Source: Hyphomicrobiales bacterium
GTDB lineage: Bacteria; Pseudomonadota; Alphaproteobacteria; Rhizobiales; Beijerinckiaceae
Direction: 5' to 3'
Length of the DNA: 58,392 nt
Assembly (NCBI GenBank): GCA_027484655.1
Contig: JAIXSM010000073.1
Span: 1 to 58,392 of the forward strand
The translations under genes were made by a program, and so were the position numbers. Below the pieces are notes generated by a model. That model saw only the letters and a list, made by a program, of their open reading frames with translations, searched no databases and was not told the origin of the DNA. Within the stretch, counting starts at the first letter, position 1, and every line of letters begins with the position of its first letter. Below, piece by piece: positions 2,118 through 22,216 of this stretch.

Positions 2118-2161
2118 TGGAGCGGGTGAAGGGAATCGAACCCTCGTATTCAGCTTGGAAG
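2118..2161 (-). repeat. Displaced tRNA-Gly 3' half (left attachment site)
   Basis: This matches 22142-22185 at 39 of 44 positions. Read on the minus strand it is a tRNA-Gly from the anticodon loop to the CCA end, and nothing upstream of it forms the missing D-arm and 5' acceptor strand. The five differences all fall in the T-stem and at the base of the acceptor stem (tRNA positions 49, 50, 64, 65 and 66). This copy pairs perfectly with the 5' acceptor strand retained in the intact gene, so it is probably the original host 3' end pushed aside on insertion. Confidence 0.9.
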
Positions 2162-4900: not shown

Positions 4901-5002
4901 TCCCCACGGGTCTCCATAAACATCCCCAACAATACCGATCCAAGTCTTCCGCGCCCGGCCAAGGAATGCGGAGACGTGACCCCAGCAAAAAGGACTATCA
5001 CG

Positions 5003-5899
5003 ATGTTTTATATACCGAATACTGGCTTCTATAACAAGCCTTTCAACGCGATGAACAACTTCACGACCGAAGTCTCGCGCTTTCGCCTCAATGCCGATCG
5101 CAACGGCTTTGGCGTCATGGAACTCCGGACAGGTGACAAAGCCTGCACAGTTCCGAACTGGCAGAAAGGGGCTGCGAAGCCCCGTGACCTGGAGCGCCCG
5201 CATCCTTACTTCCTCAACACCGGCATTCTCTGTGCAGGGCTCCGGATCGTCGATATCGATTGTGATGACCCGAACATTGTCAGCGCTATTGAAGATTTGA
5301 CGCGTCGTTTTCTTGGAGATGCGCCTTGCCGTTCGCGCGCCAATAGTGCTCGCAAGGCGTTCCTTTATCGTGCGTTCCGAGGTGAGCCGCGTAAGCGCTC
5401 AGTCACCAGCAACTCGCTGGTCAATCTGGATGGCAAGCCGAGCAAGGTCGAGGTGCTGGGCGCTGGCCAGTTTGTGCATGTGCACGGCATCCACCCGAGC
5501 GGCACGCCGTTGATCTGGCAAGAAGGCTCCCCGGCTGAGACCCCGCTGGGGGCCCTGTCGGATGTCGAAGAGGTCCATGTTCGTGCCTTCCTGAAGGCGG
5601 TGGCAGCGCTGATCGATGCCGAAGCCCCGCCGCGTGGACGTGGTGTCATGAATGGCAAGGGAAACACGATCGATCCTTTCGGCCTGAATGGCGGCATCGC
5701 ACCCGGTGGCCCGGTCTCGATCGCCCGGCTGGAGAACCTGCTCGATCAGATCGGGTCGCACCCTTCCCGCCCCTTCGCGGTTTACGATACTTGGGTGCAG
5801 GTCTGCTGCCTCCCGATCGCGGGCATGATCCGGCGCAGTCAGATCGACCGTGACGACGGTGTGGCGCTCATGAAGCGCATCAGCGAACGCCACGGGTGA
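5003..5899 (+). CDS. Bifunctional DNA primase/polymerase (Prim-Pol, AEP type)
   Basis: A 298-residue protein with archaeo-eukaryotic primase features. The metal-binding acidic pair is in IVDIDCDD (Asp84 and Asp86), a Ser/Arg stretch follows (SRANSARKAFLYR), and KVEVLGAGQFVHVHGIHPSG matches the late conserved motif that ends in H-P-S-G. Such proteins make primers and extend them during replication of plasmids, phages and satellites. The ATG at 5003 is preferred because AAGGA lies 9 bp upstream; a GTG at 4976 is possible. The stop overlaps the upstream part of the helicase gene (GTGA), so primase and helicase are coupled and together correspond to the single alpha protein of phage P4, here split in two. 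Confidence 0.88.
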   Translation: MFYIPNTGFYNKPFNAMNNFTTEVSRFRLNADRNGFGVMELRTGDKACTVPNWQKGAAKPRDLERPHPYFLNTGILCAGLRIVDIDCDDPNIVSAIEDLTRRFLGDAPCRSRANSARKAFLYRAFRGEPRKRSVTSNSLVNLDGKPSKVEVLGAGQFVHVHGIHPSGTPLIWQEGSPAETPLGALSDVEEVHVRAFLKAVAALIDAEAPPRGRGVMNGKGNTIDPFGLNGGIAPGGPVSIARLENLLDQIGSHPSRPFAVYDTWVQVCCLPIAGMIRRSQIDRDDGVALMKRISERHG

Positions 5900-5904
5900 G
5901 CGCC

Positions 5905-7923
5905 ATGAACGAAGAACCGAAGACATCCACGTTCGACGTCGCTGCGCTCGAAAAGATCGAAGCTGAGTTCGACGGCAGCAAAGAAGCCCGCGCAGGATTC
6001 AACTCGATCCGCCAGACGGCTCTCAGTCTTGGCGGCGTCGACCCGGGGGAAACCCCAGGTCGCGCTGCTGCGATGGAAGCCGAAATCTTCGGTGGCGGCA
6101 TGACCGCCGAGGGGCTGGATCGCAACGCCATGGAGGACTTTATGAAAATTGCTCCCGCTGAACCGGACGAGATCGCCCGGATCATGTTCACCACGCTCAC
6201 GGCTCGCCAAGGCGACCTCGTCACAGATCGGCACGGCGTTCCGCATATCTACGACCAAGGCGTGTTTCACCCCGTTCCCGATCTGCTGAAGCCGCCTGCC
6301 GGGGCCGTTCCAACAATCATGAGGTTCATGACCGAGCTCCGTGAGGTATCCAGGGCGCTTGCAGACTGGGAGGAGCACTTCATCTGTACGCGCGTTGCGC
6401 GTCTCTTGGCGCAGATTCAAGTCTCCAAGCTGGCAGACCATGAGGAGATTGTTCCGGGGCTGCCAGCTGGTCTCGCTCGCGCGGCCCTGAACAAGTTTCG
6501 CGCGGCTGCAGGGGCGAAGAACCCCAACGCAGCCATGGCGAAGCACCGTGCGGCGCGCAATGCCGCCATTGCCGACGATGAGATCAACAAGGCGTGGAAG
6601 CGCCTTGCCATGCTGCTACCGGTTGTCGAACTCGATACGGGCACCGTCGGCGGCGTTGGCGCTTCGGTCGTTGGCCCGGATGCCGTCCTCCGGACCGATG
6701 GGTCGATCGCCCTCCATGATCCGGCCTACCTTGCCACCCGTGCGGTCGAGTGGAATGTCCTTCTCCCCCATGAGGCGAACGATCCAGAGGTCCACGCCGC
6801 GATGGCCGCGCCATCTGGTTACCAGCCGCCCGACACCCTCGTGTTGGCCAAGTTGAGCTTGTTCCTCGCCTTCATGATGCATCTCGCTGGATGTGATCGG
6901 GCGACCGTCCAACACATCCTCGGTCTCATCGGGGCCAAGCTCGCGAAGCGCAACATCGGTCAGCGCGGGCTGCTTCTCTTCGGCGCGACGGGCACCGGCA
7001 AGAGCGTCCTGATTAAGGTTCTCCATGTCGTGTTCGGCGGTGGCGCGGAAGCCGTCGACGTGACCGTGATGACGGGCCAGAAGCATGATGCCGCGACAAT
7101 CGCCAAGCTGATCACCCGGCGACCTTCCGTTCTGTCATGCAGCGAGTTTCAGGCTGCGAAGGGCGGGAATGACTATGGCCTGCTCAAGAGCATAATCGCG
7201 GGCGATCCGGTTCCGGCTCGCCGGATCTACACTGACCAAGTCATTCATGGGAAGCTCGACGCCCTTGTTGTCCTTGCTTCCAACCGCTTGCCGAACATGG
7301 CGAACGACGCATCTGCCGCGATACTCCGGCGGCTCGATCCGCTCTACATTCCTGCCAACCTCACCGTATCCGGCAAGGCTGAGGATCGTGACCTTGCGGC
7401 CAAGCTCGCCAAGGAAGCGCCGATCATCGCACGGGTCCTTCTGACCTTCGGTGCCCACTTCGACCCCAGCGCCGACCTGCCGCTGAAGATGCAGGAGAGC
7501 CGCGACCTTGCCGACACGACCATCGCGCCGAAGATCAAGCAGTTCCTGGCCGACGCCTGCATTGTCGATCCGACCGGGTTCATTCCGACGAACACCCAGC
7601 CGGGCTGGTCACTGGGTCTGTCTGCCGCCTTCGAGCAGTGGCACCTGGCCGAGTATGGCGAATACGCGAATATCAGCCCCGAGGGGCTGAAAGCCGCCGT
7701 CATCGACGCGGGCAAGGGCAAGTTTCAAGTTGCTCGTGTTCGTCCGCCCGGCGCGGGTCGCAGCGTTCCTCAGGTTCGCGGAACCGCTGGCCTGTCCCTT
7801 AAGCCTAGCTTCAGCACGGCCCCAGCACGCCTGCCGATGGCATTCCCGACACCCGTTCAAGCGGCGGCACCAGCCACACCCACTCTGGTTGCGCCGCCAT
7901 CCAACAGCCCCGCCACCCCGTGA
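5905..7923 (+). CDS. D5/P4-type replicative helicase (SF3-like, DUF5906)
   Basis: About 672 residues. The N-terminal third has no clear domain; the central region holds a superfamily 3-type ATPase core with Walker A GATGTGKS (about residue 360), a Walker B-like VLSCSEFQ and a sensor/motif C stretch ALVVLASNRLP. This is the organisation of P4 alpha and poxvirus D5-like helicases that unwind the origin with the linked primase. The C-terminus is Pro/Ala-rich and probably disordered. The start at ATG 5905 has GGTGA 5 bp upstream; the GTG at 5896 is an alternative. A hairpin terminator and a GTGAGAC repeat cluster follow directly. Confidence 0.9.
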   Translation: MNEEPKTSTFDVAALEKIEAEFDGSKEARAGFNSIRQTALSLGGVDPGETPGRAAAMEAEIFGGGMTAEGLDRNAMEDFMKIAPAEPDEIARIMFTTLTARQGDLVTDRHGVPHIYDQGVFHPVPDLLKPPAGAVPTIMRFMTELREVSRALADWEEHFICTRVARLLAQIQVSKLADHEEIVPGLPAGLARAALNKFRAAAGAKNPNAAMAKHRAARNAAIADDEINKAWKRLAMLLPVVELDTGTVGGVGASVVGPDAVLRTDGSIALHDPAYLATRAVEWNVLLPHEANDPEVHAAMAAPSGYQPPDTLVLAKLSLFLAFMMHLAGCDRATVQHILGLIGAKLAKRNIGQRGLLLFGATGTGKSVLIKVLHVVFGGGAEAVDVTVMTGQKHDAATIAKLITRRPSVLSCSEFQAAKGGNDYGLLKSIIAGDPVPARRIYTDQVIHGKLDALVVLASNRLPNMANDASAAILRRLDPLYIPANLTVSGKAEDRDLAAKLAKEAPIIARVLLTFGAHFDPSADLPLKMQESRDLADTTIAPKIKQFLADACIVDPTGFIPTNTQPGWSLGLSAAFEQWHLAEYGEYANISPEGLKAAVIDAGKGKFQVARVRPPGAGRSVPQVRGTAGLSLKPSFSTAPARLPMAFPTPVQAAAPATPTLVAPPSNSPATP

Positions 7924-8318: not shown

Positions 8319-9770
8319 ATGTTTGAACAAGTCTTCAAGAACATCGACGATGCCCTCCGCAAGGAAGACGGATGCTCGACCGAGCTCGACTATATCGAGC
8401 AAACCTCTTGGGTATTGTTCCTGAAATATCTGGATGATCTGGAGAAGGAGCGCGAGGGCATGGCCGCGCTGGAGGGCCGCGCCTATGCCCCGATCATCGA
8501 TGCCGCGCATCGCTGGGGCGTTTGGGCCGCGCCGAAGAAGGCCGATGAGACGCTCGACCACACCCGCACGCGTACCGGGCCGGACCTGATCGACTACGTC
8601 AACGAAAAGCTCTTCCCCTATCTCAAGGCCTTCAAGGAGCGCGCCACCGGCTCCGACACCATCGAATACAAGATCGGCGAGATTTTCGGCGAGCTGCGCA
8701 ACCGCTTCCAGTCCGGCTATAACCTGCGGGACGTGGTGCAAGAGATCGACGAGCTGCGCTTCGGCTCCCAGGCCGAGAAGCATGAACTCTCGGATCTCTA
8801 CGAGTCGCGCATCAAGCGCATGGGCAATGCCGGGCGCAATGGCGGCGAGTACTACACGCCCCGCCCGCTCATCCGCGCCATGATCCACGTCGTCGATCCC
8901 AAGATCGGCGAGCGCATCTATGACGGCGCGGTCGGCTCGGCGGGCTTCCTGTGCGAGGCCTTCGCCCACCTGCGCCCGAAGGCCCGTACGACGGCGGACA
9001 TCGAAACCCTCCAGACGCGCACCCTCTACGGCAAGGAGAAGAAGCCGCTCGCCTATGTCATCGCGATCATGAACATGATCCTGCACGGCATCGATGCGCC
9101 GAACATCATCCATTCGAACACGTTGGCCGAGAACATCTCGGATATTCAGGCAAAGGACCAGTTTGATATCATCCTCGCAAACCCGCCTTTTGGTGGCAGC
9201 GAGCGCCCGGAGGTGCAGCAGAATTTCGATATCCGCACGGGCGAGACCGCCTTTCTCTTCCTCCAGCATTTCATGCGGATGCTGAAGCCCGGTGGGCGGG
9301 CGGCGATCGTCATCAAGAACACGTTCCTCTCGAACTCGGACAATGCCAGCGTCGCCTTGCGGCGCGAATTGCTGGCGAATTTCAACCTGTTTGCGGTGCT
9401 CGATATGCCGGGCGGCACGTTTCAGGGGGCGGGCGTCAAAACCGTGGTGCTGTTTTTCGAGAAGGGCGCACCGACGCGGTCGATCTGGTTTTACAAGCTC
9501 GATCCGGGCCGCAATATGGGCAAGACCAACCCGCTCAATGATGAGGATCTGGCGGAGTTTGTGCGGCTCCAGCCCGCGCGCGGCAACTCCGACAATTCCT
9601 GGAGCATCGATGCCGGTACCATAGACAAGACGAGCTATGACCTCTCGGTGAAGAACCCGAACAAGGGCGAAGAAGCGGCCATCCGCACCCCGCAGGAGAT
9701 CATGGACGAGATCGTCGCGCTGGATGCCGAGAGCGCCGACATCCTCGCCAGCATCCGGGGGCTGGTATGA
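8319..9770 (+). CDS. hsdM: Type I restriction-modification system, DNA methyltransferase subunit
   Basis: A 483-residue HsdM with an N-terminal helical HsdM_N domain (about 1-140) and an N6-adenine methyltransferase core. Key motifs are EYYTPR at 177-182, the S-adenosylmethionine-binding region VYDGAVGSAGFLCEAF-type (here IYDGAVGSAGFLCEA) and the catalytic NPPF at 288-291. Together with HsdS it methylates an adenine in each half of the recognition site and protects host DNA. It is the first gene of the hsdM-hsdS-hsdR operon; the stop overlaps the hsdS ATG. The motif I residues read GAVGSAGF rather than the commoner DPACGSGGF, in keeping with a subset of HsdM proteins, and are worth a glance when judging activity. 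Confidence 0.96.
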   Translation: MFEQVFKNIDDALRKEDGCSTELDYIEQTSWVLFLKYLDDLEKEREGMAALEGRAYAPIIDAAHRWGVWAAPKKADETLDHTRTRTGPDLIDYVNEKLFPYLKAFKERATGSDTIEYKIGEIFGELRNRFQSGYNLRDVVQEIDELRFGSQAEKHELSDLYESRIKRMGNAGRNGGEYYTPRPLIRAMIHVVDPKIGERIYDGAVGSAGFLCEAFAHLRPKARTTADIETLQTRTLYGKEKKPLAYVIAIMNMILHGIDAPNIIHSNTLAENISDIQAKDQFDIILANPPFGGSERPEVQQNFDIRTGETAFLFLQHFMRMLKPGGRAAIVIKNTFLSNSDNASVALRRELLANFNLFAVLDMPGGTFQGAGVKTVVLFFEKGAPTRSIWFYKLDPGRNMGKTNPLNDEDLAEFVRLQPARGNSDNSWSIDAGTIDKTSYDLSVKNPNKGEEAAIRTPQEIMDEIVALDAESADILASIRGLV

Positions 9771-10993
9771 AGGGGTGGGAGACCAAGAAACTTGGGGAGG
9801 TTTGCGATCTAATCGCGCGCGGCGTAGCGCCGAAGTACCTCGAAACCGGCGGGGCAAGAGTCGTCAACCAAAAGTGCGTGCGAGATCATGCCATTAACTT
9901 CGACTTGGCGCGCAGGCACGACCATACGGCCAAAGCCGTTCCCAAGGATCGTTACATTCGGGCTGGGGACGTCCTCGTAAACTCGACCGGCACGGGAACG
10001 CTGGGACGTGTCGCACAGGTTCGGCAAGAACCGGATGAGCCAACTACCGTCGACACTCACGTGACAATTGTTCGCCCGCAAGCCAAACGTTTTTTCCCGG
10101 ATTTCTTCGGTTACATACTGATCAAGATCGAGGACGAGATTGCCGCATCCGGCGAGGGTGCAAGTGGGCAGACGGAACTTGCGCGGTCCACTTTGACCGA
10201 GAAATTCCTAGTGTCGTTTCCTACGTCGCTCGATGAACAGCGGCGGATTGTGGCCATTCTGGATGAGGCCTTTGCCGGGCTGGCCGTCATGCGCCAGCAC
10301 GCCGAGGCCAACCTCAAGAACGCCCGCGCCATCTTCGACAGCCACCTCAACTCTATCTTCTCGCAACGTGTCGAGGGGTGGGTTACCGAGGGGCTAAATG
10401 AGCATGTTCGTTTTGTGGACTATCGAGGCAAGACGCCTCCGAAGCGTGATGCTGGAATCCGGCTGATAACAGCCAAAAATGTCAAAATGGGATTCATTCG
10501 CCGCGAGCCGGAAGAGTTTATCGATCCTGCTGCTTACGATGAATGGATGACTCGGGGCTTTCCCAAGAAAGGTGACGTGCTCTTTACGACAGAAGCACCG
10601 CTGGGGAACGTTGCGCAGCTCGACACTGACGAAAAGGTTGTTATTGGACAGCGCTTAATTACCATGCAGCCTGTACCTAATGTTCTAGACCGTAAGTTTT
10701 TGGCATTCATGCTTATGTCTGGGCCGCTGCAAGAAGCGATCCACGCCAAAGCTACAGGCGCAACGGTCTTGGGGATTAAGGCAAAGCTTTTGAAGTTCAT
10801 CCCCATTTCGTATCCACAGAAGCTGGCAGAGCAGCGGGCGATTGCCGACAAGATCGAAGAGATTTCGCTTGAGGTTGCCCGCCTCGAATCCCTCTACCGC
10901 CAGAAACTCGTGGCCATTGACGAACTCAAGCAATCCATCCTGCACCGGTGCTTTTTGGGCGCGTTGAGCGCCAAGGACGCGCTGGCCGCATGA
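9767..10993 (+). CDS. hsdS: Type I restriction-modification system, specificity subunit
   Basis: A 408-residue HsdS with two target-recognition domains. TRD1 is at about 1-165 and TRD2 at about 205-345; each is followed by a conserved helical spacer, the first containing LDEQRRIVAILDEAFAGL and the second LAEQRAIADKIEE with SLYRQKLVAIDELKQSIL. The spacer length sets the distance between the two half-sites, giving an asymmetric bipartite target. The ATG overlaps the hsdM stop (ATGA) and the stop overlaps the hsdR ATG, so the three subunits are translationally coupled. The target sequence cannot be read from the protein by eye. Confidence 0.95.
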   Translation: MKGWETKKLGEVCDLIARGVAPKYLETGGARVVNQKCVRDHAINFDLARRHDHTAKAVPKDRYIRAGDVLVNSTGTGTLGRVAQVRQEPDEPTTVDTHVTIVRPQAKRFFPDFFGYILIKIEDEIAASGEGASGQTELARSTLTEKFLVSFPTSLDEQRRIVAILDEAFAGLAVMRQHAEANLKNARAIFDSHLNSIFSQRVEGWVTEGLNEHVRFVDYRGKTPPKRDAGIRLITAKNVKMGFIRREPEEFIDPAAYDEWMTRGFPKKGDVLFTTEAPLGNVAQLDTDEKVVIGQRLITMQPVPNVLDRKFLAFMLMSGPLQEAIHAKATGATVLGIKAKLLKFIPISYPQKLAEQRAIADKIEEISLEVARLESLYRQKLVAIDELKQSILHRCFLGALSAKDALAA

Positions 10994-13326
10994 ATGAAGC
11001 CGAGACCCGCGCCGAGTTGATCGACCCCGCCCTGAAGGCGGCGGGCTGGGGCGTGGTCGAGGGCAGCCGCATCCGCCGCGAGGTCATCGCGCCGGGGCGG
11101 CTTGAAGGCGGCGGGCGACGCGGCAAGGCCGAGATCGCCGATTATGTGCTGATCTTCCGCAATACCAAACTGGCCGTGATCGAGGCCAAGAAGCGAGCCG
11201 CGCCCGTGACCGAAGGCCTTGGCCAAGCCAAGCTCTATGCGGGCAAGCTCCTCACCCGCTTCGCCTTCTCCTCTAATGGCGAGGGCGTCTATCAGGTCGA
11301 TATGCAGACCGGCGCGGAAGGGCCGGTCGATGCCTTCCCGTCACCCGAGGCGCTCTGGGCCGCTGCCTTCCCCGAGCCCAATGCGTGGCGTGATCGTTTC
11401 GCCGCCATCCCCTTCATTGAGAAGGGCGGCGGCTGGTCTGTCCGCTACTACCAGCACAACGCCGCAAACCGGGCACTGGAGGCCGTTGCAGCGGGCAAGC
11501 CGCGCATTCTGCTGACGCTCGCCACTGGCACCGGCAAGACCACCATCGCCTTCCAGATCGCGTGGAAGCTGTTTCAGGCGAAGTGGAACCTCTCGGGCGA
11601 ACCCACGCGCCGCCCGCGCATCCTGTTTCTCGCGCATCGGAACATTCTCGCCAATCAGGCCAAGAATGATTTCAGCTCCTTCGCGGCCTTCCCCGAGGAT
11701 GCCATGGTCCGCATCCGCCCCGACGAGATCGCCAAGAAAAGCCGCGTGCCGACTAACGGCAACCTGTTTTTCACGATCTTCCAGACCTTCATGAGCGGCA
11801 AGGACGCTGAGGGCAACGACGCGCCCAATTTCGGCGACTATCCGAAGGACTTCTTCGATTTCATCATCATCGACGAGTGCCATATCGGCGGCGCGAAGGA
11901 TGAAAGCACGTGGCGCGGCATTCTGGAATATTTCACGCCCGCCGTGCAGCTTGGCCTGACAGCCACGCCCAAACGCGAGATCAATGCCGACACGTATCGG
12001 TATTTCGGCGACCCCGTTTATATCTACTCGCTCAAGGAAGGCATTAACGACGGCTACCTAACGCCTTTCAAGGTGAGGCAGATAGCGACCACGCTCGACG
12101 ATTATATCTACACCCCGGATGACGAGGTTATCTCCGGCGAGGTCGAGGAAGGCAGGCGCTACCGCGAAGGCGAGTTCAACCGCATCATCGAAATCATGGA
12201 CCGGGAACGCTACCGGGTGCGCGTGTTCATGAACGAGATCGACCAGCGCGAAAAGACCATCGTCTTCTGTGCCTCGCAGGATCACGCCGCTGCCGTGCGC
12301 GACCTGATCAACCAGATGAAAACGAGCACCGACCCGCTCTATTGCGCCCGCGTGACCGCTAATGACGGCGCGATTGGCGATGGACACCTCAAGGCCTTCC
12401 AGAACAACGAGAAGACCATCCCGACCATCCTCACCACGTCGCAGAAGCTCTCGACCGGAGTGGATGCCCGCAACGTGCGCAACATCGTGCTGATGCGCCC
12501 GGTTAACTCGATGATCGAGTTCAAGCAGATCATCGGGCGCGGCACCCGCCTCTATGACGGCAAGGAGTACTTCACGATCTACGATTTCGTGAAGGCTTAC
12601 GAGCACTTCAACGACCCCGAATGGGATGGCGAGCCGCTGGAGCCGGAACAGCCGCGACCGCGCGGCGAGCGGGGCGAGACGACACCACCAGAAGCGCCAC
12701 CCGGCGGGGATGAGGGAGACGACACCCAACGCCCGGCGACGATCAAGATCAAGCTGGCCGATGGCAAGGAGCGCACCATCCAGCATATGTCCGCCACGAC
12801 ATTCTGGAGCCCGGACGGCAGGCCGATGTCCGCCGCGCAATTCGTCGAGAAGCTGTTCGGTGACCTGCCGACCTTCTTCAAGGATGAAGAGGAATTGCGC
12901 CACCTCTGGAGCCAGCCCGAAACCCGCAAGGCGCTGCTTCAGGGCCTCGCTGACAAGGGCTATGGCCGCGACCAACTCACCGAAATGCGCCGCGCCATCA
13001 ATGCCGAGAAGAGCGATATCTTCGACGTGCTGGCCTACGTCGCCTTCCTGGCCGCTCCGATCACCCGCGAGGAACGCGTCGAGACCCGCCGGGCTCAGGC
13101 ACTCCAGCCCTACAGCGCCGAGCTACAGGCCTTCCTCGATTTTGTCCTCGGGCAATATGTGGCTGAAGGCATCGATGAACTCTATCAGGAGAAGCTGGGC
13201 GCGCTGATCGGCCTGCGTTACGGCTCTGTGAATGACGCCGTCCGGGCGATCGGCAGCGTCGACAACATCCGCGACGCGTTCGTCGGGTTTCAGCGGCATT
13301 TGTTTGCAGGCGGGGCGGAGCAGTGA
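10990..13326 (+). CDS. hsdR: Type I restriction-modification system, restriction/translocase subunit
   Basis: A 778-residue HsdR (EcoEI-like). The N-terminal nuclease domain has the PD-(D/E)xK pattern EIADYVL followed by VIEAKK (Glu65, Lys67). The superfamily 2 motor has motif I ATGTGKT (178-184), DECH (295-298), LTATPKR and motif VI QIIGRGTRLYDG. A Pro/Glu-rich linker around residues 550-590 leads to the EcoEI_R_C-type C-terminal domain that docks on HsdM/HsdS. All catalytic residues look intact. The ATG at 10990 overlaps the hsdS stop. Only 20 bp separate its stop from mcrB, so mcrBC may be read through from this operon. Confidence 0.95.
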   Translation: MNEAETRAELIDPALKAAGWGVVEGSRIRREVIAPGRLEGGGRRGKAEIADYVLIFRNTKLAVIEAKKRAAPVTEGLGQAKLYAGKLLTRFAFSSNGEGVYQVDMQTGAEGPVDAFPSPEALWAAAFPEPNAWRDRFAAIPFIEKGGGWSVRYYQHNAANRALEAVAAGKPRILLTLATGTGKTTIAFQIAWKLFQAKWNLSGEPTRRPRILFLAHRNILANQAKNDFSSFAAFPEDAMVRIRPDEIAKKSRVPTNGNLFFTIFQTFMSGKDAEGNDAPNFGDYPKDFFDFIIIDECHIGGAKDESTWRGILEYFTPAVQLGLTATPKREINADTYRYFGDPVYIYSLKEGINDGYLTPFKVRQIATTLDDYIYTPDDEVISGEVEEGRRYREGEFNRIIEIMDRERYRVRVFMNEIDQREKTIVFCASQDHAAAVRDLINQMKTSTDPLYCARVTANDGAIGDGHLKAFQNNEKTIPTILTTSQKLSTGVDARNVRNIVLMRPVNSMIEFKQIIGRGTRLYDGKEYFTIYDFVKAYEHFNDPEWDGEPLEPEQPRPRGERGETTPPEAPPGGDEGDDTQRPATIKIKLADGKERTIQHMSATTFWSPDGRPMSAAQFVEKLFGDLPTFFKDEEELRHLWSQPETRKALLQGLADKGYGRDQLTEMRRAINAEKSDIFDVLAYVAFLAAPITREERVETRRAQALQPYSAELQAFLDFVLGQYVAEGIDELYQEKLGALIGLRYGSVNDAVRAIGSVDNIRDAFVGFQRHLFAGGAEQ

Positions 13327-13346: not shown

Positions 13347-15110
13347 ATGGCCAGATACCATCCGGATCACGATGCTGCGCCGATACACAGTATAGCTGAA
13401 CAGTGGAAGACCGCGTGCCTGATTGCCGACGGCTCGTTGTTCAGCACCGACGCTGCCCTTTGGACCCTCGACAACCTCAAGCATTTAGAGCGGGCGTTTG
13501 TCGGAAACCCAATTGAAGGAAACACGGCCGGCTTCCTCGAAAAATTTAAACTCCAGCTACAGAACGAGAACCCTAAGACGGTTCAGCTCGCCTCAGAGAT
13601 CATGTTTGTCCATTTCTTGTTCACGACCAGTGTTGGCCCTCAAGCGAAAATCGAGATGGTCCGCACCGTTTGGGAATGGTCCGGCGCAGTATTGCCGAAC
13701 GACCATACGTTGTTCGCACCAGTTGGCCTTCGAGGCGTAGCCAATACCGGCACCGCCTACAACACGTTGCGCTGGAAGGAAGTCGCCTATCTGATTTCTC
13801 TGGCGGTAGCGTTCAAGAAGCTGCCTCCCGACAGTCGCATCCAGGCCCTTGCCAGTGCTGAGACGTTCTCCGACTGGGTCTACGGTCAGCCCATGGACGG
13901 CGATCGTATGTTTCGGCGGATGATCCTGTATCTGCTGTTCCCGGACTCGTATGAACGTGCTGCAACTTTGAAGGACAAACACGCAATCCTGTCCGCCTTG
14001 GAGCCAGTACCGATCGGCCAAATCCGTAAAGTCGCAGAACCAGTCCTTGATCAGCGCCTTCTCGCCTTGCGTGAACGGCTTGGCCGCGAGATGGGAACCA
14101 CTGAGATCGACTTTTACCGGTCCCCATTGATCGACCGCTGGAAGCTAAAAGAGAGCCCCGAAGACGACACCGAACCATCTGACGTGACCAAAGATGCCGG
14201 CGAAGCCGAAACCTCGGGGTCAAGGGCATCGCTTAGCCCTTTCACAATCGACGATATCGTCCGTGAGGGCTGCTTCATCGAACGAACGAAACTCAGCGAC
14301 ATTCTCTCTATGGCGCGAGAGAAGTGTAATCTCGTCCTTCAGGGCGCACCGGGTACCGGCAAGACCTGGCTTGCCCGGCGGTTGGCCTATGCCTTGATCG
14401 GCGAACGCGACGAAGCACGCGTCACCGTGCTCCAGTTCCACCCCTCGCTTTCCTATGAGGACTTTGTAAGGGGCTGGCGACCCTCCGCCGATGGCAGATT
14501 GCAACTGGTCGACGGCGCGTTCCTGAGAGCCGCTGAAGCCGCCAAGGCTAATCCCACGCGCGACTTCGTTGTCGTGATCGAGGAGATCAATCGCGGCAAC
14601 CCGGCACAGATATTTGGCGAACTGCTCACCTTGCTGGAGAACACCAAACGCAAGCCGTCAGAGGCCATTGCACTCGCCTATCCGCGCCATGGCGAAGGGC
14701 CGGTGCATCTGCCCCCGAACCTCTTCGTCATCGGGACGATGAATATCGCGGATCGTTCCTTGGCCTTGGTCGACCTCGCGCTGCGTCGGCGCTTTGCCTT
14801 TGTCACACTGGAGCCGCGCCTCGGACCAGAATGGCGGCAGCATTGCGCGAAACACGGGATGGAAGCCGACACGATCACCATGATCGAGGACCGCATGACG
14901 GAGCTTAACAAGGCCATCTCTGATGACCGGGCTCTTGGACCGGCATTTCGGATCGGGCACAGCGTGGTCACGCCGGAATCGCCAGTGGCGGACTCTGCTG
15001 CATGGTTTGAAGCACGGATCACCAGTGAGATCGCGCCGCTCCTTGAGGAATACTGGTATGACCGGCCTGAGCGCGCGGCTGATGCAACGACCTCATTGCG
15101 CAGACGTTAG
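13347..15110 (+). CDS. mcrB: McrB-type AAA+ GTPase of the McrBC restriction system
   Basis: A 587-residue protein. The C-terminal AAA+ motor has Walker A GAPGTGKT (333-340), Walker B VVVIEEINRG (Glu412-Glu413) and the McrB signature GTMNIADRSL with LALRRRF (463-483). McrB hexamers use GTP to drive the McrC nuclease on modified (typically 5-methylcytosine) DNA. The N-terminal 300 residues, which should read the DNA modification, do not resemble the E. coli McrB N-domain (DUF3578) by eye, so target choice is unknown. A charged linker near residues 270-295 separates the two halves. mcrC starts 2 bp downstream. Confidence 0.93.
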   Translation: MARYHPDHDAAPIHSIAEQWKTACLIADGSLFSTDAALWTLDNLKHLERAFVGNPIEGNTAGFLEKFKLQLQNENPKTVQLASEIMFVHFLFTTSVGPQAKIEMVRTVWEWSGAVLPNDHTLFAPVGLRGVANTGTAYNTLRWKEVAYLISLAVAFKKLPPDSRIQALASAETFSDWVYGQPMDGDRMFRRMILYLLFPDSYERAATLKDKHAILSALEPVPIGQIRKVAEPVLDQRLLALRERLGREMGTTEIDFYRSPLIDRWKLKESPEDDTEPSDVTKDAGEAETSGSRASLSPFTIDDIVREGCFIERTKLSDILSMAREKCNLVLQGAPGTGKTWLARRLAYALIGERDEARVTVLQFHPSLSYEDFVRGWRPSADGRLQLVDGAFLRAAEAAKANPTRDFVVVIEEINRGNPAQIFGELLTLLENTKRKPSEAIALAYPRHGEGPVHLPPNLFVIGTMNIADRSLALVDLALRRRFAFVTLEPRLGPEWRQHCAKHGMEADTITMIEDRMTELNKAISDDRALGPAFRIGHSVVTPESPVADSAAWFEARITSEIAPLLEEYWYDRPERAADATTSLRRR

Positions 15111-15112
15111 GC

Positions 15113-16264
15113 ATGACCTCCGAAGCCACGGAAGATGTCGACATCCAACCCGGGCTCGCAGCCCGCATCCCGCTGCGCAACAAGTTTGTCTTGCTGCTCT
15201 ACGCTTCTGACCTCGCACGGTATCAGGGCGAATTTTCTGGCCTGTTGGAGTGCTTGCCCGAGAAGGCTGAAGCCGATTTTCTGTCGTTGATCGGGCGCAT
15301 TCTTGAGTTTGCGGTCCAGCGTAGGCTGAAACGCAACCTGTCGAAGGGGTACATTGGCCGAAAGGCGGTGCTAACGCGTGTGAGAGGCCGGATCGATTTG
15401 ATGCCGACCTTGGTCAATCAGCTGATGGAACGCGGCCAGATCGCCTGCCGTTTCGAGGAGTTGACTGCCGACACACCGCGCAACCGTCTCGTTCGGCACG
15501 CTCTGACGATTGTCGCAGCACGCGTCAGCGATGATGGCTTGGCGCATACATGCCGGACATTGGCCCGTGATCTGGGTGACATGGGCGTGTCGAGCAATCT
15601 GCCGTCCAGAACTGAGCTTGCAACGGATGTCATAAGCCGGAACGACGCGCTGGATCACCTGATGGTCGCCACCGCCCGACTGGTCATCACACCCGAGCTT
15701 CCTTGGGCGGCCGACGGAGACAGAAAGACCGGAGATCTGACAGCGGACCTCGTCTTCTGGCGGATCTATGAAAAGGCTGTTGCGCGAATATGTGAGGTTG
15801 CATTCCCCAGCAGGGTCAAAACACAAGCACAGCTGCGCTGGCCATTTGACGCGATCATGCCGGAAACCCGATCTCTATGGCCGGTCATGCAACGGGATTT
15901 GCTGATCAAGCGTGACGACGGCAGCGTTCTCATCGTCGATACCAAGTTCGCAACGATGCTCACCGAGCGGGATGGTCGAGCCCAGTTCAAGACGGCGCAT
16001 CTCTACCAGATGTTCAGCTATCTCGTCGCGCACGAGCGGGCGAGCAGCCAGAACGCCGATGGCTTGCTGCTTTACCCTGCTGTAGGCGAACCTGAGATCG
16101 AGCACGTTGCAGAGGTGGCCGGACGCGTCATGCGGCTCGCCAGCGTCAATCTGGCTGCGCCCGCACTCGACATCGTCGCGCGCATTCAGGCCTTGGTCGC
16201 CCCGTCCCGTTCAACTGATCCTGCCCACGGCTCTGACGAGCGCTTGCTGAAGCGCGCGAGCTAG
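15113..16264 (+). CDS. mcrC: McrC nuclease subunit of the McrBC restriction system
   Basis: A 383-residue McrC. The N-terminal region (IPLRNKFVLLLYASDLARYQ) matches the domain that inserts into the McrB ring, and the C-terminal part carries the PD-(D/E)xK nuclease: a DLLIKRDDG strand followed by LIVDTK (Asp276, Lys278). McrC cleaves DNA when McrB translocates between two modified sites. The gene lies 2 bp after mcrB and is certainly in the same operon. The stop is followed by about 470 bp without a clear gene before the SIR2 gene. Confidence 0.93.
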   Translation: MTSEATEDVDIQPGLAARIPLRNKFVLLLYASDLARYQGEFSGLLECLPEKAEADFLSLIGRILEFAVQRRLKRNLSKGYIGRKAVLTRVRGRIDLMPTLVNQLMERGQIACRFEELTADTPRNRLVRHALTIVAARVSDDGLAHTCRTLARDLGDMGVSSNLPSRTELATDVISRNDALDHLMVATARLVITPELPWAADGDRKTGDLTADLVFWRIYEKAVARICEVAFPSRVKTQAQLRWPFDAIMPETRSLWPVMQRDLLIKRDDGSVLIVDTKFATMLTERDGRAQFKTAHLYQMFSYLVAHERASSQNADGLLLYPAVGEPEIEHVAEVAGRVMRLASVNLAAPALDIVARIQALVAPSRSTDPAHGSDERLLKRAS

Positions 16265-16732: not shown

Positions 16733-18481
16733 ATGACGGCCGAGGCGGCAACCAACGCAACCGTACCCGATATCCTGGAGCAGCTCGACGGAGACTTCGC
16801 TGCGATGGCTGCCGCCTTCGGCAATAGCGCCTTTGCCTTGTGGGTCGGCTCGGGAATATCGTTTGGCCGTGCGCCGGATCTCGGCATGATCGCGGCGCGC
16901 GCCATTGAATTTCTGCGCGTGAAGGCCAACAATCCTCCAACCCAAGCGCTCTTCGAGCCGGCGCTGCGCGCGGCGATCACAGCGAGCCGGACTGCTATAG
17001 CCGCCGCCGAACCGTACTTTGCGACGCCATTCGTCAATTGGCCCGACGAGGTCAGACAGCCTATCATTCGTGGCCTATGGAATCGCTATTCGGATCTCCT
17101 GAATGTCCGGATTCAGAATACAGAAGAGGATTACATACTCTGGGATGCCGTCGATGTCCGCGACGCCTTCAGCAATCCCCCACCACCGGGATGCGCCCAT
17201 TTCTGCATCGCGATCCTAGTTCTAGAGGGCGTTCTGCGCGAGATAGCTTCGGCGAATTGGGATGGATTCATCGAGGCGGCCGTCGAGCAACTGGCAGGCG
17301 GCCTCGCCGGCAACCTTCAGGTTGTCGTCGACCCCGCGCATTTACGCGACCAGCCCGGCAAGGGGCGCTTGATCAAATTTCATGGTTGCATTGTCCATGC
17401 AACGCAGGATGAGGCTGCCTATCGCAAGTTTCTCGTGGGCAGCACGACCCAGATCAATGCGTGGCCACACCATCAGTTCTACGCTGCTATTCGTAACGAG
17501 GTGGTGTCGCTGGCCACCAATCATCGTGCGCTTATGACAGGCCTATCACTACAGGATGGAAACCTGCAGGCGGCGTTCAATGTCGCGCGTCAGGCCAATC
17601 CATGGCCTTGGCCCTGTATGCCGCAGGCTCATGTCTTCTGCGAGGGCGAGATCGGGGATGGTCAGCGTCTGATGCTTCAGACCGTCTATTCTGGAAGCTA
17701 CAACAATGCGATTGAGGAGATCGAGAAGAGCGCGCTGCTAGTCGCTTGGGGCGAACAAGTCCTGCTTGCGCTAGTGTTTAAGGTCCTTGCCGACAAGTTC
17801 GCCGCATCAATTGACATTGCGCTCCACGGACGAGAACTCGCCAACGACCGCGCCGTCATTACAGCAGCGCTGAACCGGCTCCGCGATGCCGCTGCGGCCC
17901 ACGCGACCGGCGATCGGACCGTCTTTGTTGCTCGGGCCATCTCCTGCTGGTCGCGTCTCCTCAGTCTCTTTCGGACCGGCACGCTCCCCACGCGGCCGGC
18001 TGGTTATGAAATGCTCACCAGCGGGACGGTCGGCAGCGTCGGCCAGGACCAGAACGCAAGAGTCGCCTGCCTTGGGGAACTCGGCGTGGCGCTTGCACTG
18101 CTCCAACAAGGTGTTGACGAGGACCGCTGGACGCTGGCTCCGCCCGTCAATGACCAGCTGGCATCGGGAGCCGTTGCCGGCACCGGGCTTTGGGATGGCG
18201 CACCGTCCCGTCCGATTTTCTTCGCACGTTCCGCTGGCACGGCGATCGAACTTCAAAAGGCCGGCGCGTTCGCCAATGACAACTCGATCGTGATACATGT
18301 AGATGCGACATGGCATGAACTGCAGGAGGCAAGCGTTGGTGAAAGCCCTCGCAAGGTCAGCAGAAGCCCAGGTCGGAATGGCACCATTGGGACGCATCAT
18401 GTGAGCTTAGCGAGGATGCTTGCCAACGAGACGACCGCGGAGGGCCTCAGTGCCCGCTTCGTATCGGAGCTTGCGCTGTGA
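16733..18481 (+). CDS. SIR2-domain protein, predicted NADase effector of a Lamassu/ABC-3C-like system
   Basis: A 582-residue protein. The N-terminal half is a SIR2 fold: GSGIS at 39-43 (NAD-binding loop), ANWDGFIE with Asn175 (the position of the catalytic Asn in defence SIR2 domains), KFHG with His217 (general base) and GLSLQDGN at 270-277. All key positions are present, so NAD hydrolysis is plausible. Residues about 290-582 have no family I recognise. In Lamassu/ABC-3C systems the effector's C-terminal half docks on the SMC protein, so that role is possible here. There is no signal peptide or membrane segment. The start at ATG 16733 was chosen because an upstream extension is low-complexity. 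The stop overlaps the next start (GTGA). The SIR2 assignment is firm; the abortive-infection role is inference. Confidence 0.85.
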   Translation: MTAEAATNATVPDILEQLDGDFAAMAAAFGNSAFALWVGSGISFGRAPDLGMIAARAIEFLRVKANNPPTQALFEPALRAAITASRTAIAAAEPYFATPFVNWPDEVRQPIIRGLWNRYSDLLNVRIQNTEEDYILWDAVDVRDAFSNPPPPGCAHFCIAILVLEGVLREIASANWDGFIEAAVEQLAGGLAGNLQVVVDPAHLRDQPGKGRLIKFHGCIVHATQDEAAYRKFLVGSTTQINAWPHHQFYAAIRNEVVSLATNHRALMTGLSLQDGNLQAAFNVARQANPWPWPCMPQAHVFCEGEIGDGQRLMLQTVYSGSYNNAIEEIEKSALLVAWGEQVLLALVFKVLADKFAASIDIALHGRELANDRAVITAALNRLRDAAAAHATGDRTVFVARAISCWSRLLSLFRTGTLPTRPAGYEMLTSGTVGSVGQDQNARVACLGELGVALALLQQGVDEDRWTLAPPVNDQLASGAVAGTGLWDGAPSRPIFFARSAGTAIELQKAGAFANDNSIVIHVDATWHELQEASVGESPRKVSRSPGRNGTIGTHHVSLARMLANETTAEGLSARFVSELAL

Positions 18482-19101
18482 GCGCGCTTCTTGTTCGCGG
18501 TCTCGTTAAGCGCTTGCAGGCGGCGGGCTACAAAGCGCTTGAGACGCCGTTTCGCGTTGCATCAGTCGATTTTGACTTCACCGCCGCAATGCTCGGGGTT
18601 GGCGGCCGCGCGCTGGATTTGATATTGATAGTCGACACCGCAACCGGCGACTTTGGCGACCGCGATGCTGTACTTGTGCGCCAGCGGATCGAGTCGCTCA
18701 GCCGCGCGCTGGATGTGACGCAATCGCGCTATCTGCTGACTGTGATACTCGCGGGCGCGAGCCTTGCGACGTTGGTGGACGGGCTGTCGCCGATCTGCCG
18801 CGTGCTCAGCATTGAGAGCGCGGCGCTGCAACCTGACGGACAATCCGTGGACGCCGTCGCCCGGGAAGCGCTCGACGATCACATCCGTCTTTTGCTGCCG
18901 CTTGACCTGCTCAATGACGAAGCGGCCGTAGCGACAGCTCCGACTGACCCAATCGCTGAGCTTCTGGCCGCGTTGCCGTCTAAAGTCGATGACGCCCTAT
19001 GGACAAGCATCGCCGAGGCCTCGGCGCGGGGCGAAGCGGCAGTGACGCGGGCCTTGGGCAAGCGGCTTGGCGAAGCTCTCAAGGTCGAGGGTACCCCATG
19101 A
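18478..19101 (+). CDS. Small middle component of the SIR2/SMC system, unknown fold
   Basis: A 207-residue protein starting at a GTG that overlaps the SIR2 stop and ending in an ATGA overlap with the SMC gene, so the three proteins are almost certainly made in fixed ratio. The N-terminal half has an alpha/beta look (RVASVDFDFTAAML, then ALDLILIVDTATGD, then YLLTVILAG); the C-terminal third is helical and acidic to neutral. I recognise no catalytic motif. The size and place match the small middle gene of three-gene Lamassu/Ddm (LmuC/DdmB-like) and ABC three-component operons, proteins that bridge effector and ATPase. The assignment rests on context, not on visible homology. Confidence 0.75.
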   Translation: MSALLVRGLVKRLQAAGYKALETPFRVASVDFDFTAAMLGVGGRALDLILIVDTATGDFGDRDAVLVRQRIESLSRALDVTQSRYLLTVILAGASLATLVDGLSPICRVLSIESAALQPDGQSVDAVAREALDDHIRLLLPLDLLNDEAAVATAPTDPIAELLAALPSKVDDALWTSIAEASARGEAAVTRALGKRLGEALKVEGTP

Positions 19102-21530
19102 CCGAGGCAAGGTTGCAGTCGCTCGACATCACCAATTTCCGGAGCATTCGCGGCTCAGTGCACGCGCCGCTCGACGCCAAAGTGGTCCTCATCCATGGAG
19201 AGAATGGAGCGGGCAAGACGAGCTTGCTGTCGGCGATCGAACTCGCGCTAACCGGCCGCGTGATCGCGCTGGAGCGCGCTGATCCAGGCTATGCTCACCA
19301 GTTGCTTCAGCGCGGCGCGCCTACGGGCAGCGTCAAACTGAAGGCCACGGGGCTGCCTGACCGCAACAATTTCGAGACGCTGTTGACTCCGGGCGGTTTC
19401 ACGACACCGGCGATGCTCCCTGCCGATCTCACCAGCTTCTTCAGCGAGCGCTGCTATCTGCCGCAGGCGCTGTTAGGCCAGTTGCTACAGATCTATCAGG
19501 ATTCGGACTCAGCTCCGGATTCGCCACTCGCCCGTTTCGTGACTGAGTTATTGGGCCTCGATCGGCTCGATGCTATCGAGACTGGGCTTGAGGCGGTCGC
19601 CGACCTCCGCAATCTTCGCAAAACGACAGCAGTCTATCCGCAGGTGGAGAGTGAGAAGCAACGTCTTGATCGCCAGATCAGCGATCATCAACAGGCGCGA
19701 GCTGCGGCCCAACGTGCGCTAACCGCAGCGCTCGCGGAGATGAACGCCGCCTGGGTCGTGCTTGGCCAGAGCACGCAGCTCGCAGAGGAGGACATCGCGG
19801 GCCTTGTTGAGCGCCTTGGGCACTCGTTGGAAGAGACCGCCGCCGCGCCGCTGGTCGACCAGAAGCGAACGATCGCCTCGATGCGCCGTAGCGCGGCCGA
19901 AGGCGGTGGCACCGAGGCAGCCGACGAGGCCGGCCTTGCCGCAGCGCATAACGCCGCCACAGAGCGCCTTGCCCGCTGGTCTGACGAACATCGCGCTGCA
20001 CTGATGCGCGTGGCCGAACGAGCAGCGAAACTCCTTCCCAATCTGGTCGCGTCGCCAAGCGATGCGAAGGCTTGGCATGATGAGGTCGCTGGGCAACTGA
20101 CCGAGGCCCTGCGCCAAGCGCGCGCAAGGTCGGAACGTGCGAGCACAGATGCCGCGCGCAAGATCACGCTGGCGGCGGAACTCGAAGTAGAGCGTAAAAA
20201 TCTTGCGACGCTCGACGCAGAGATCGCGCGCATTTCGGAAAATGCCGGGTCGCTCGCCGAAATCTTATCGGAGGTCAGCGCGTTTCTGACCAACGATATC
20301 TGCCCAGTTTGCGACCGCAATTACGCCGACCTCGATAAGGGGTCGCTCGTTGACCATGTTCACACAAAAGTCGGCCAGCTGTCCGGCTCTGCCGAGCGCC
20401 TGCTCGCGCTTGGTAGAAACCGTTCGACCCAGCTGGAGCAGGTCGATCGGCTCGTGCGCGAAGACGCAATGCTCGTTGCGCGCGCGCTGAAGTCGGAAGA
20501 AGCCGCCGATCTGCAGCGCCGCACCAGTGAGCTCGAAGGCGTTGTTGCTGAGATCGCACGGCTTGCCGCGCCCATAGCGCTATGGACAGAGATGGCGGCA
20601 GCTGAAGCTAAGGCTCGGCGTGCGCTTAGCGAGCATCAGGTCCGCAACACCTCGCGCGCCTCCATCGGTGCAATGCTCCGCAACATGGCTTCCGCACTAG
20701 GACTTGAGGTTTTGGACCCGTTGCGGCCGGTCAACGACATCATGGTAGACCTCGACAAGCTCATCGATAAGCAGCTCGCAGACCTGAATGCGAAGGGCGC
20801 TGCCCGCCGGGCCATCGTTGATATGCGGAGTCAGGCGGAGATGCAGCTCACTCGCCGCAGGAATCTGGATTCCCTGATTGCCCAGGATCAGGCGCAGCAG
20901 CGTCTTCACGATGCCGCGCTGAAGCGCGCGGCCGCTATCCGTATCGATGGGCAGGTCATCAAGAGCACGGTTGAGGCGGTGCGTGCACGCATCATTGTCC
21001 GCGAATTCAATGATCGACTCAACCGGCTGTGGCGCGACTTGTTCATCCGGCTCGCGCCTACCGAACCTTTTGTTCCGGCATTTCAAATTCCGACCGAAGC
21101 CACCCAGAAGCTGAAACCGAAGCTGGTGACGCGTCACCGATTAGGCGGTTCGGGCGGTACGCCCGGTGCCATGCTGAGTGCCGGCAACCTCAACACCGCC
21201 GCGTTGACGCTGTTTATTGCGCTGCACCTCACGGTTACGCCGCAGCTACCCTGGCTGATTCTTGATGACCCGGTGCAGTCGATGGACGATGTCCACATCG
21301 CCCATTTCGCTGCGCTGTTGCGCACGTTGTCAAAGGAACATAACCGCCAGGTGATTGTTGCTGTCCACGATCGCCAGTTGTTCGAGTACTTGCGGCTCGA
21401 ACTTAGCCCTGCCTTCGAAGACGACAGCCTGCTCACGCTAGAGCTAACTCGTAACAGCACGCGCGACACCGATCTGCTGCCTAAATGGTTCCGCTATAAA
21501 AAGGAGGCTGTCTTGCGCTTTGCCGCCTGA
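19098..21530 (+). CDS. SMC/Rad50-like ATPase with zinc-hook motif (LmuB/ABC-3C-like)
   Basis: An 810-residue protein with split ABC ATPase halves. The N-lobe begins RLQSLDITNFRSIRG and has Walker A GENGAGKT (34-41). Long Ala/Arg/Glu-rich coiled coils (about 190-390 and 410-640) flank a CPVC zinc-hook-like motif (402-405). The C-lobe has the signature region MLSAGNLNTAALTL, Walker B LILDDP (720-725) and a His switch region VIVAVHD. The organisation is that of Rad50/SMC and of Lamassu LmuB proteins that sense DNA ends or unusual DNA. No nuclease domain is fused and no Mre11 gene is adjacent, which argues against a repair complex. Its ATG overlaps the middle gene's stop. The role as sensor of the SIR2 effector is inferred. 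Confidence 0.87.
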   Translation: MTEARLQSLDITNFRSIRGSVHAPLDAKVVLIHGENGAGKTSLLSAIELALTGRVIALERADPGYAHQLLQRGAPTGSVKLKATGLPDRNNFETLLTPGGFTTPAMLPADLTSFFSERCYLPQALLGQLLQIYQDSDSAPDSPLARFVTELLGLDRLDAIETGLEAVADLRNLRKTTAVYPQVESEKQRLDRQISDHQQARAAAQRALTAALAEMNAAWVVLGQSTQLAEEDIAGLVERLGHSLEETAAAPLVDQKRTIASMRRSAAEGGGTEAADEAGLAAAHNAATERLARWSDEHRAALMRVAERAAKLLPNLVASPSDAKAWHDEVAGQLTEALRQARARSERASTDAARKITLAAELEVERKNLATLDAEIARISENAGSLAEILSEVSAFLTNDICPVCDRNYADLDKGSLVDHVHTKVGQLSGSAERLLALGRNRSTQLEQVDRLVREDAMLVARALKSEEAADLQRRTSELEGVVAEIARLAAPIALWTEMAAAEAKARRALSEHQVRNTSRASIGAMLRNMASALGLEVLDPLRPVNDIMVDLDKLIDKQLADLNAKGAARRAIVDMRSQAEMQLTRRRNLDSLIAQDQAQQRLHDAALKRAAAIRIDGQVIKSTVEAVRARIIVREFNDRLNRLWRDLFIRLAPTEPFVPAFQIPTEATQKLKPKLVTRHRLGGSGGTPGAMLSAGNLNTAALTLFIALHLTVTPQLPWLILDDPVQSMDDVHIAHFAALLRTLSKEHNRQVIVAVHDRQLFEYLRLELSPAFEDDSLLTLELTRNSTRDTDLLPKWFRYKKEAVLRFAA

Positions 21531-22141
21531 AGGGCGACGTCAAAGCCAAAGCATCACGTTCTCCAAGCGCTCTCGATCTATGTCGAATGACCAGTAGTTC
21601 GGCGTCGCGGCATTCTCTTCGAAAATGGTCTTTCCTTCTGATTGCCCATGTTCATAACTAGGCTCTGCTCGGGTTGTGGTCCTGTTTGGGCCGAGTGGCG
21701 AACTAGTCGGGGGGCAGCTGGCCAAGGCTGATGTGAGGCCGGCGAGTGCTTTCTGCCCCATCAACTTGTACGGAGGTATTTTCTCCGTGTGTAAGCTAGT
21801 ACCTTCTTTTTTGCCCGGCGTAGGGTGCTGGGGGCCTTGGTCCGATGGGGGGCGGGGGTGTTTATGGTCGGGACGGGCACGGCATCGCTGAAACAGCAGC
21901 ACACGTGCAGACCGCAAATGGCGCTGGCGAAAAGCGGCGATACCCTTATGACGAACCCGCCTACCGTTCGGTCATCAGCCGTGCTGGAGCCATAAACACT
22001 GGCCAAGGCCTGCCCCTGCCATCGGTCTGATTCTGTGTTTGGCAAACAGGCAGCGGGACCACAGCGGGACCATGGGGAAATTCAAGACACGACCGTTCGC
22101 TGCAATCCAATCATAAGACACTGATTAAATTCAATAATTTA
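21531..22141. other. Right terminal region of the element, no supported gene
   Basis: About 610 bp between the SMC gene and the tRNA-Gly repeat. A 125-codon minus-strand frame (21540-21917) ends in a readable stretch (NYWSFDIDRERLENVMLW), but its remainder is low-complexity and it has no family match by eye, so I do not call it. The last 90 bp hold two GGGACCA repeats. Composition is less GC-rich than the neighbouring chromosome near 22090-22142. Confidence 0.4.
22055..22072. promoter_or_regulatory. Right-end integrase arm-type sites
   Basis: Two direct GGGACCA copies start at 22055 and 22066, spaced 11 bp, 70-87 bp inside the right attachment repeat. They repeat the motif and spacing found five times near the integrase start at the left end. 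Sharing between the two ends, and so far apart, supports integrase binding rather than local regulation. Binding is inferred. Confidence 0.6.
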
Positions 22142-22185
22142 TGGAGCGGGTACCGGGAATCGAACCCGGGTATTCAGCTTGGAAG
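22142..22185 (-). repeat. Right attachment site within tRNA-Gly
   Basis: This is the 44-bp partner of 2118-2161. The two copies are identical from the anticodon loop through the start of the variable region and through the T-loop; differences are confined to five stem positions. The crossover therefore most likely lies in the anticodon-side identical block (about 22169-22185). Confidence 0.9.
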
Positions 22186-22216
22186 GCTGCTGCTCTACCA
22201 TTGAGCTACACCCGCA
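22142..22216 (-). tRNA. tRNA-Gly (anticodon TCC), probably a host-element chimera
   Basis: The minus strand folds as a full tRNA: acceptor GCGGGTG with TACCCGC, D-stem GCTC/GAGC, anticodon loop CTTCCAA (anticodon TCC), T-stem CCGGG/CCCGG around TTCGATT, and an encoded CCA. Position 7-66 is a G-U wobble. The displaced 3' half at 2118-2161 would give G-C there. The gene is therefore likely made of the host's 5' half joined to a 3' half supplied by the element on insertion. It is the attachment site of the 20-kb element. Confidence 0.95.

Follow-up and report, generated by a model that had tools for sequence, protein, structure and literature searches.

The stretch analyzed (hereafter the window) comprised 58,392 nucleotides of contig JAIXSM010000073.1 from a Hyphomicrobiales bacterium of the Beijerinckiaceae (assembly GCA_027484655.1), and the subject of this report is a three-gene operon in it that combines a SIR2-family protein with an SMC ATPase. 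The first gene (16733..18481, + strand) encodes the SIR2-family putative effector, a protein of 582 residues with NADase-type positions at GSGIS 39-43, N175, H217 and G270-D275. The second (18478..19101, +) encodes a middle protein of 207 residues, of which residues 1-141 were modelled as PD-(D/E)XK nuclease-like, without the conserved lysine. The third (19098..21530, +) encodes an SMC/Rad50-like ATPase of 810 residues with the Walker A motif GENGAGKT, a CPVC hook, the signature LSAGN and the Walker B motif ILDDP. Open reading frames (ORFs) were present at 16664/16733-18481, 18478-19101 and 18999/19098-21530, the paired numbers being alternative starts for the SIR2 and SMC genes. For SIR2, the ATG at 16733 (582 residues) was preferred over the upstream GTG (605 residues) because most homologues have 578-590 residues (83 of 113, with 12 longer and 18 shorter). 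The 4-base-pair overlaps of the three genes that had been described in a first-pass annotation, made from the sequence of this DNA, were confirmed: the SIR2 stop and the middle-gene start share GTGA (18478-18481), and the middle-gene stop and the SMC start share ATGA (19098-19101). A 20-kb island inserted in a tRNA-Gly gene carries the operon as its final cargo, after a type I restriction-modification (RM) system and McrBC.

Homologues of the middle protein were located at 20 loci when one genome per species was scanned. In 19 of the 20, the trio was adjacent and in the same gene order; at the remaining locus (L007), the contig end precedes any visible SIR2 gene. Loci L014 and L015 are identical over the cassette sequence and were counted once. 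The operon was judged not to be a product of chance because of this arrangement and of the Pfam matches to SIR2_2 (E 2.6e-6, above cut-off) in the first protein and SMC_N (E 2.3e-15) in the third. Pairwise distances of the three proteins correlated with r 0.97-0.99 over 22 loci, values reached by 0 of 2000 permutations, and with r 0.96-0.98 when the three most distant loci were removed. The 22-locus set left out L005, L007, L015 and the odd plasmid loci L026 and L027; its members are not fully independent, because L017 and L022 are identical in the compared stretches of SIR2 and SMC. The SIR2, middle and SMC genes are a genuine three-gene unit and are co-inherited.

All NADase positions had been reported in the SIR2 protein, and the alignment bore this out: GSGIS 39-43, N175, H217 and GLSxQD 270-275 were invariant in 42 of 42 SIR2 rows, except at position 273 (L in 19 rows, I in 21, M in 1 and V in 1). 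The SIR2_2 match is the single one in the genome. Structure comparison of the predicted model returned ThsA, KomBC, SPARSA and DSR2. The model thus has what distinguishes SIR2 NADase defence effectors, i.e. a predicted SIR2 fold with the catalytic Asn and His. The fold and the NADase-type Asn/His positions are common to the operon's SIR2, Thoeris ThsA, KomBC, SPARSA and DSR2, but the partner proteins of those four differ from those of the operon. In the Nezha SIR2-HerA system, the ATPase is HerA, a hexameric enzyme of the helicase type rather than an SMC, and there is no middle protein. When 23 SIR2 members were compared with PADLOC models, weak matches were obtained to ThsA (9 members), SIR2-Argonaute (18) and the candidate PDC-S65 (19). 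No SIR2 chain was found in the PDB by sequence with the SIR2 profile at E<=1. The invariant residues and the predicted fold agree with the earlier proposal of an NADase-type effector; the site is intact, and destruction of nicotinamide adenine dinucleotide (NAD+) is the activity that we infer from fold and residues.

The C-terminal half of the SIR2 protein (300-582) is long and conserved and was found only in proteins of this SIR2 family. The search with this half, restricted to proteins whose length is 0.55 to 1.75 times that of the query, identified 113 proteins among 7997 candidates scored, and 112 of the 113 also match the SIR2 N-terminal half. Swapping of the effector was considered, and no instance of it was found in these sequences; the sole exception among the 113 (P0219) is an N-truncated SIR2 in which no further domain was seen. 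P0219 runs from the SIR2 C-terminal half in frame into the middle protein, a fusion or frameshift product, and gave no meaningful match to the PDB by sequence. A C-terminal half of this kind, and the presence of DSR2 among the structural matches, would suit a scheme in which this half senses a phage protein as DSR2 senses the tail tube protein, the SMC and middle proteins serving only as a restraint. Such a scheme seems unlikely: the co-divergence and the intact trio in 19 of 20 loci fit an obligate complex in which an ATPase is the sensor, and the Walker A, signature, hook and H-loop residues of the SMC are kept in 23 of 23 rows.

The middle protein had been given as 207 residues of unknown fold. 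The length stands, whereas a nuclease-like fold of the PD-(D/E)XK type is now predicted for residues 1-141. The active-site motif of PD-(D/E)XK enzymes is D...(D/E)xK with a conserved Lys. Across 53 middle-protein rows, no conserved lysine of such a site was present; the best lysine column, at residue 26, held K in 21 of 53 rows and K or R in 51 of 53. Judged by motif and alignment column and not by a residue-level superposition of the model, the middle protein does not look like an active PD-(D/E)XK nuclease, which points to a protein that probably reads DNA and does not cut it. Nothing in Pfam scored above cut-off, no described family in the copies of Pfam, NCBIfam and PADLOC used was matched by sequence, and the middle-protein profile found no meaningful match in the PDB by sequence. 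The protein therefore keeps its earlier description as unmatched, with no unrelated described family detected by sequence, although about 300 relatives exist. Their number eases the choice of a workable representative. The predicted inactive nuclease fold would supply a testable idea for the role of middle components in SMC defence systems, a role not explained in those portions of the review literature that were available.

An SMC or Rad50 ATPase is likewise joined to a nuclease-fold partner in Wadjet and in Mre11-Rad50 (SbcCD). On that model, the middle protein would be a nuclease attacking DNA directly together with the SMC, and the SIR2 protein would be accessory. The chances of this are slim in our estimation: the operon's partner is PD-(D/E)XK-like without the conserved lysine and is not an Mre11 phosphoesterase, its SMC does not group with SbcC, and there were no Wadjet genes among the island genes scanned.

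The third gene product had been described as an 810-residue SMC/Rad50-like ATPase with a CPVC hook, which proved correct; Walker A (GENGAGKT) lies at residues 34-41, the hook at 402-405 and Walker B (ILDDP) at 721-725. Pfam AAA_23 and AAA_13 were matched in addition to SMC_N. The Walker B Asp was present in 23 of 23 family rows (ILDDP). Elsewhere, the motif was DQP in 10 of 10 loci of L040-L049, which are PADLOC LmuB loci, and IDDP in 3 of 3 of L051-L053. The five best PADLOC matches of the SMC comprised four LmuB models (E 5.3e-32 to 1.5e-20) and one mad3, and the best LmuB model scored 109.8 bits. When 398 genomes were searched with that model, 42 places were returned, 17 of them scoring 184-450 bits and 25 scoring 91-142 bits. 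Two of the 25 low scorers are members of the SIR2-SMC family, and the studied genome fell short of the E 1e-25 threshold. Another low scorer, L073, has an SMC of 128.5 bits with the LmuB model, yet it adjoins a strong LmuA match.

A tree was calculated from 44 head-region rows with an arbitrary root; the SbcC rows came from L109 and L113, the SMC row from L110, and a corrected RecN_L095 was used. Long or doubtful rows were left out (RloC_L103, LmuB_L066, LmuB_L050, L083, L084 and the three SMC rows used at first), and the tree held no archaeal Rad50 row. L045, L056 and L060 were in neither this tree nor a preliminary one, and L061 had no usable ORF. The family SMC formed a clade of 11 rows (support 100/100), and the nearest set was the LmuB of L051-L053 and L085 (91/86). 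These together then joined SMC, SbcC and RecN at 97/95. Across that branch lay the small LmuB clades, among them core LmuB. The 3 RecN, 2 SbcC and 1 SMC rows fell outside the set made up of the family and L051-L053/L085. The preliminary tree, which contained defective RecN_L095 and SbcC_L088 outgroup rows, had united the family, L051-L053/L085 and L084 in 16 rows (90/83). A grouping of the SMC with the RecN/SbcC repair proteins, which the first-pass annotation had named as evidence against its proposal, was thus not recovered, and the SMC appears, with moderate support, to lean to one part of Lamassu and away from RecN and SbcC. L084 and L083 are hooked SMC-like proteins (818 and 819 residues) that are weakly related to the family, and a candidate defence protein, PDC-S31, is found close to L084. 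The PADLOC LmuB loci L040-L069 were scattered over several distinct SMC clades that differ in their Walker B residue (Q, S, D and others), which suggests that current Lamassu models may cover more than one lineage.

The order of effector, small middle protein and SMC is that of Lamassu type II, DdmABC and ABC-3C. With Lamassu, the operon also shares its nearest SMC kin, the LmuB models as best matches and the tree grouping with some LmuB. PMC10586767 lists SIR2 among the LmuA effector domains of Lamassu/ABC-3C, states that the catalytic Glu of Walker B is generally replaced by Gln in the Lamassu SMC, notes that LmuC is lacking in some Lamassu, and treats the SMC as the presumed DNA sensor. The operon differs from Lamassu in a Walker B that ends in Asp (LDDP) as opposed to the Gln (DQP) of L040-L049, and in an effector that is constant in the sequences seen.

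Model searches at E<=1 were used to examine membership. An LmuA effector joins a variable N-terminal enzyme to a C-terminal domain that is shared. None of 23 SIR2 members matched the PADLOC LmuA models, and none of 44 middle proteins matched the PADLOC LmuC or Pfam ABC-3C middle-component models; since HMMER filters drop most matches above about E 0.1, these negatives reach little beyond that value. The PADLOC controls worked, with LmuC found in L079, L081 and L085, and LmuA found alongside it in the systems of L081 (L052) and L085. Profile comparison with hhalign gave no tie between the middle protein and the LmuC sets. A likeness seen by eye between the middle protein and ABC-3C_MC1 (PF20289, the LmuC of L081) was rejected: hhalign of alignments A4 and A8 assigned it 0.8% over 28 columns, against a best probability of 0.6% in 30 column-shuffled controls. 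The four LmuC sets were themselves mostly without a relation detectable by hhalign to one another, so the missing LmuC match carries less weight. Solved Lamassu chains were absent among the fold and sequence matches listed, an absence that excludes nothing.

These results bear on whether the operon is a true Lamassu (type II) subtype, with the middle protein a diverged LmuC class and the SIR2 a diverged LmuA. The gene order, the hooked SMC, the non-glutamate Walker B, the grouping with some LmuB, the poor mutual detectability of LmuC sets and the inclusion of SIR2 among LmuA domains in PMC10586767 all speak for it, and it was accorded substantial weight, somewhat short of an even chance. Set against it are the want of any match to LmuA, LmuC or ABC-3C_MC models and the position of the core LmuB clades apart in the SMC tree. 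The operon was not filed as Lamassu, because PADLOC found its controls and none of these models matched, and because hhalign gave no tie. From the first-pass idea of a Lamassu/ABC-3C-like system, the gene order and an LmuB-leaning SMC survive, and membership finds no support in sequence; its suggestion of a new subtype is apt insofar as the libraries recognise the system only in part. By analogy, the operon would work like Lamassu; it is set apart by comparison at the level of sequence. A tentative and rather doubtful idea is that of a separate SMC lineage outside Lamassu, in which a Rad50-like sensor is paired with a dead restriction-fold protein, a reader of DNA ends or structures that gates an NADase. 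If so, an ancestral nuclease-ATPase pair would have become an alarm for DNA that kills the cell through loss of NAD.

The interpretation favored here, with confidence somewhat better than even, is that the operon is a three-gene abortive-infection system directed against phage (and possibly plasmids), Lamassu-like, with an NADase effector, on a tRNA-Gly defence island. A dimer of the hooked SMC/Rad50-like protein, together with the nuclease-fold middle protein, would recognise aberrant DNA that arises as a phage or plasmid replicates. Recognition would free or assemble the SIR2 protein, as in Lamassu, where activation is described as freeing LmuA, which then assembles (addendum in a 2025 review, PMC12409362). 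The NADase-type site would then destroy NAD+, and the infected cell would stop. We infer the DNA trigger, the SIR2 release, the NAD loss and the defence role by analogy. The operon would unite two major defence themes within a single compact unit: DNA sensing of the SMC type and depletion of NAD by SIR2. Detection tools would probably miss such a system, because the middle protein is unmatched and the SIR2 is seen only as a generic SIR2 domain. Judging from literature listings, no specific SIR2-SMC system was found in print, only the general statement in PMC10586767; because SIR2 as a Lamassu/ABC-3C effector is already published in those general terms, the system is not wholly new.

The middle protein was found in 1 of 61 near genomes, the studied genome itself; there was no match in the other 60, some of which are incomplete (43 of the 61 are >=90% complete and <=5% contaminated). 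The SMC family was found in 3 of 398 genomes drawn from the whole phylum at E<=1e-40, the studied genome included, and both other positive genomes also carry the SIR2 and middle genes. Going by record title, most hosts of the 20 loci belong to the Alphaproteobacteria; Pseudomonas, Pseudomaricurvus and Paraburkholderia also occur. Fifteen plasmid records were matched; of the 6 opened, four carry the trio and two have odd-length, broken-looking gene models. The rhizobial plasmid loci L026 and L027 have a split SMC and a long middle gene, and the operon is apparently decaying there. No match to the operon was found in viral contigs and phage records within the sensitivity of these searches.

For the neighbor survey, 119 proteins were picked in the 18 loci that had any, and 92 were scanned. 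Among the matches listed (the best 25 of 93 Pfam and 159 PADLOC families), HamA, HamB and Mrr_cat each occurred twice, and cytosine methylase, EcoRII-C, type ISP, type IIG and cyclase once each. HamA also adjoins the plasmid copy L025. Ordinary metabolic and transport genes were likewise among the neighbors. The defence genes around the operon's relatives are suggestive, not statistical, evidence of a defence association. A housekeeping DNA-repair or sirtuin operon with no defence role might be read from the resemblance of the SMC to Rad50-type NCBIfam models (E about 1e-13). We consider this highly improbable in view of the mobile island, the defence neighbors, the lack of a middle-protein match in the other near genomes and the SIR2_2 match over cut-off, a deacetylase model giving no more than a trace.

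The defence context presumed in the first-pass annotation was borne out by the island, which carries a type I RM system and McrBC. Its left end (attL, 2118..2161) is a 44-bp partial tRNA-Gly copy, 39/44 identical to 22142-22185; the latter segment belongs to the tRNA-Gly (TCC) gene (22142..22215, - strand) and forms attR, where the island ends on the right. All remaining cargo genes are on the + strand. A tyrosine integrase with Arm-DNA-bind_3 (2354..3658) lies just inside attL. It is followed by a Prim-Pol domain protein (4976..5899), a probable island replication gene, and by a DUF5906-like protein (5896..7923; a weak match of 25.6 bits vs. a cut-off of 27.6) with a putative primase/helicase role. 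Family matches identified the type I RM methyltransferase HsdM (8319..9770), specificity protein HsdS (9767..10993) and restriction subunit HsdR (10948..13326). An AAA_5 ATPase (13347..15110) is termed McrB-like on account of the McrC-like gene that follows it (15113..16264; PF10117).

In two same-genus relatives (G020 and G022), the insertion site was taken to be uninterrupted because a homologue of window 276-727, the tRNA-Gly and a MatE gene are directly consecutive; in a third (G006), the contig ends inside the tRNA. Compared with the tRNA region of G020/G022, the left repeat region shows 98% identity over 50 bases and the right one 83% over 120, a difference that fits an island that brought its own tRNA end. 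The heptamer GGGACCA occurs seven times in the window, always on the + strand and just inside the island ends (5 at 2283-2349 and 2 at 22055-22072). Chance alone would give about as many (5.98 expected), but the placement suggests integrase arm-binding sites. Two frames lie between the left flank gene and attL (835-2084) and are absent from G020 and G022; one is STAS-like by eye, and the other (1119-2081) has a weak HATPase_c match (25.7 bits vs. a cut-off of 26.4). To the right of the tRNA-Gly, the intergenic DNA at window ~22470-22740 has short matches (~30-155 bases) at many places on other contigs of this genome and belongs to a dispersed repeat family.

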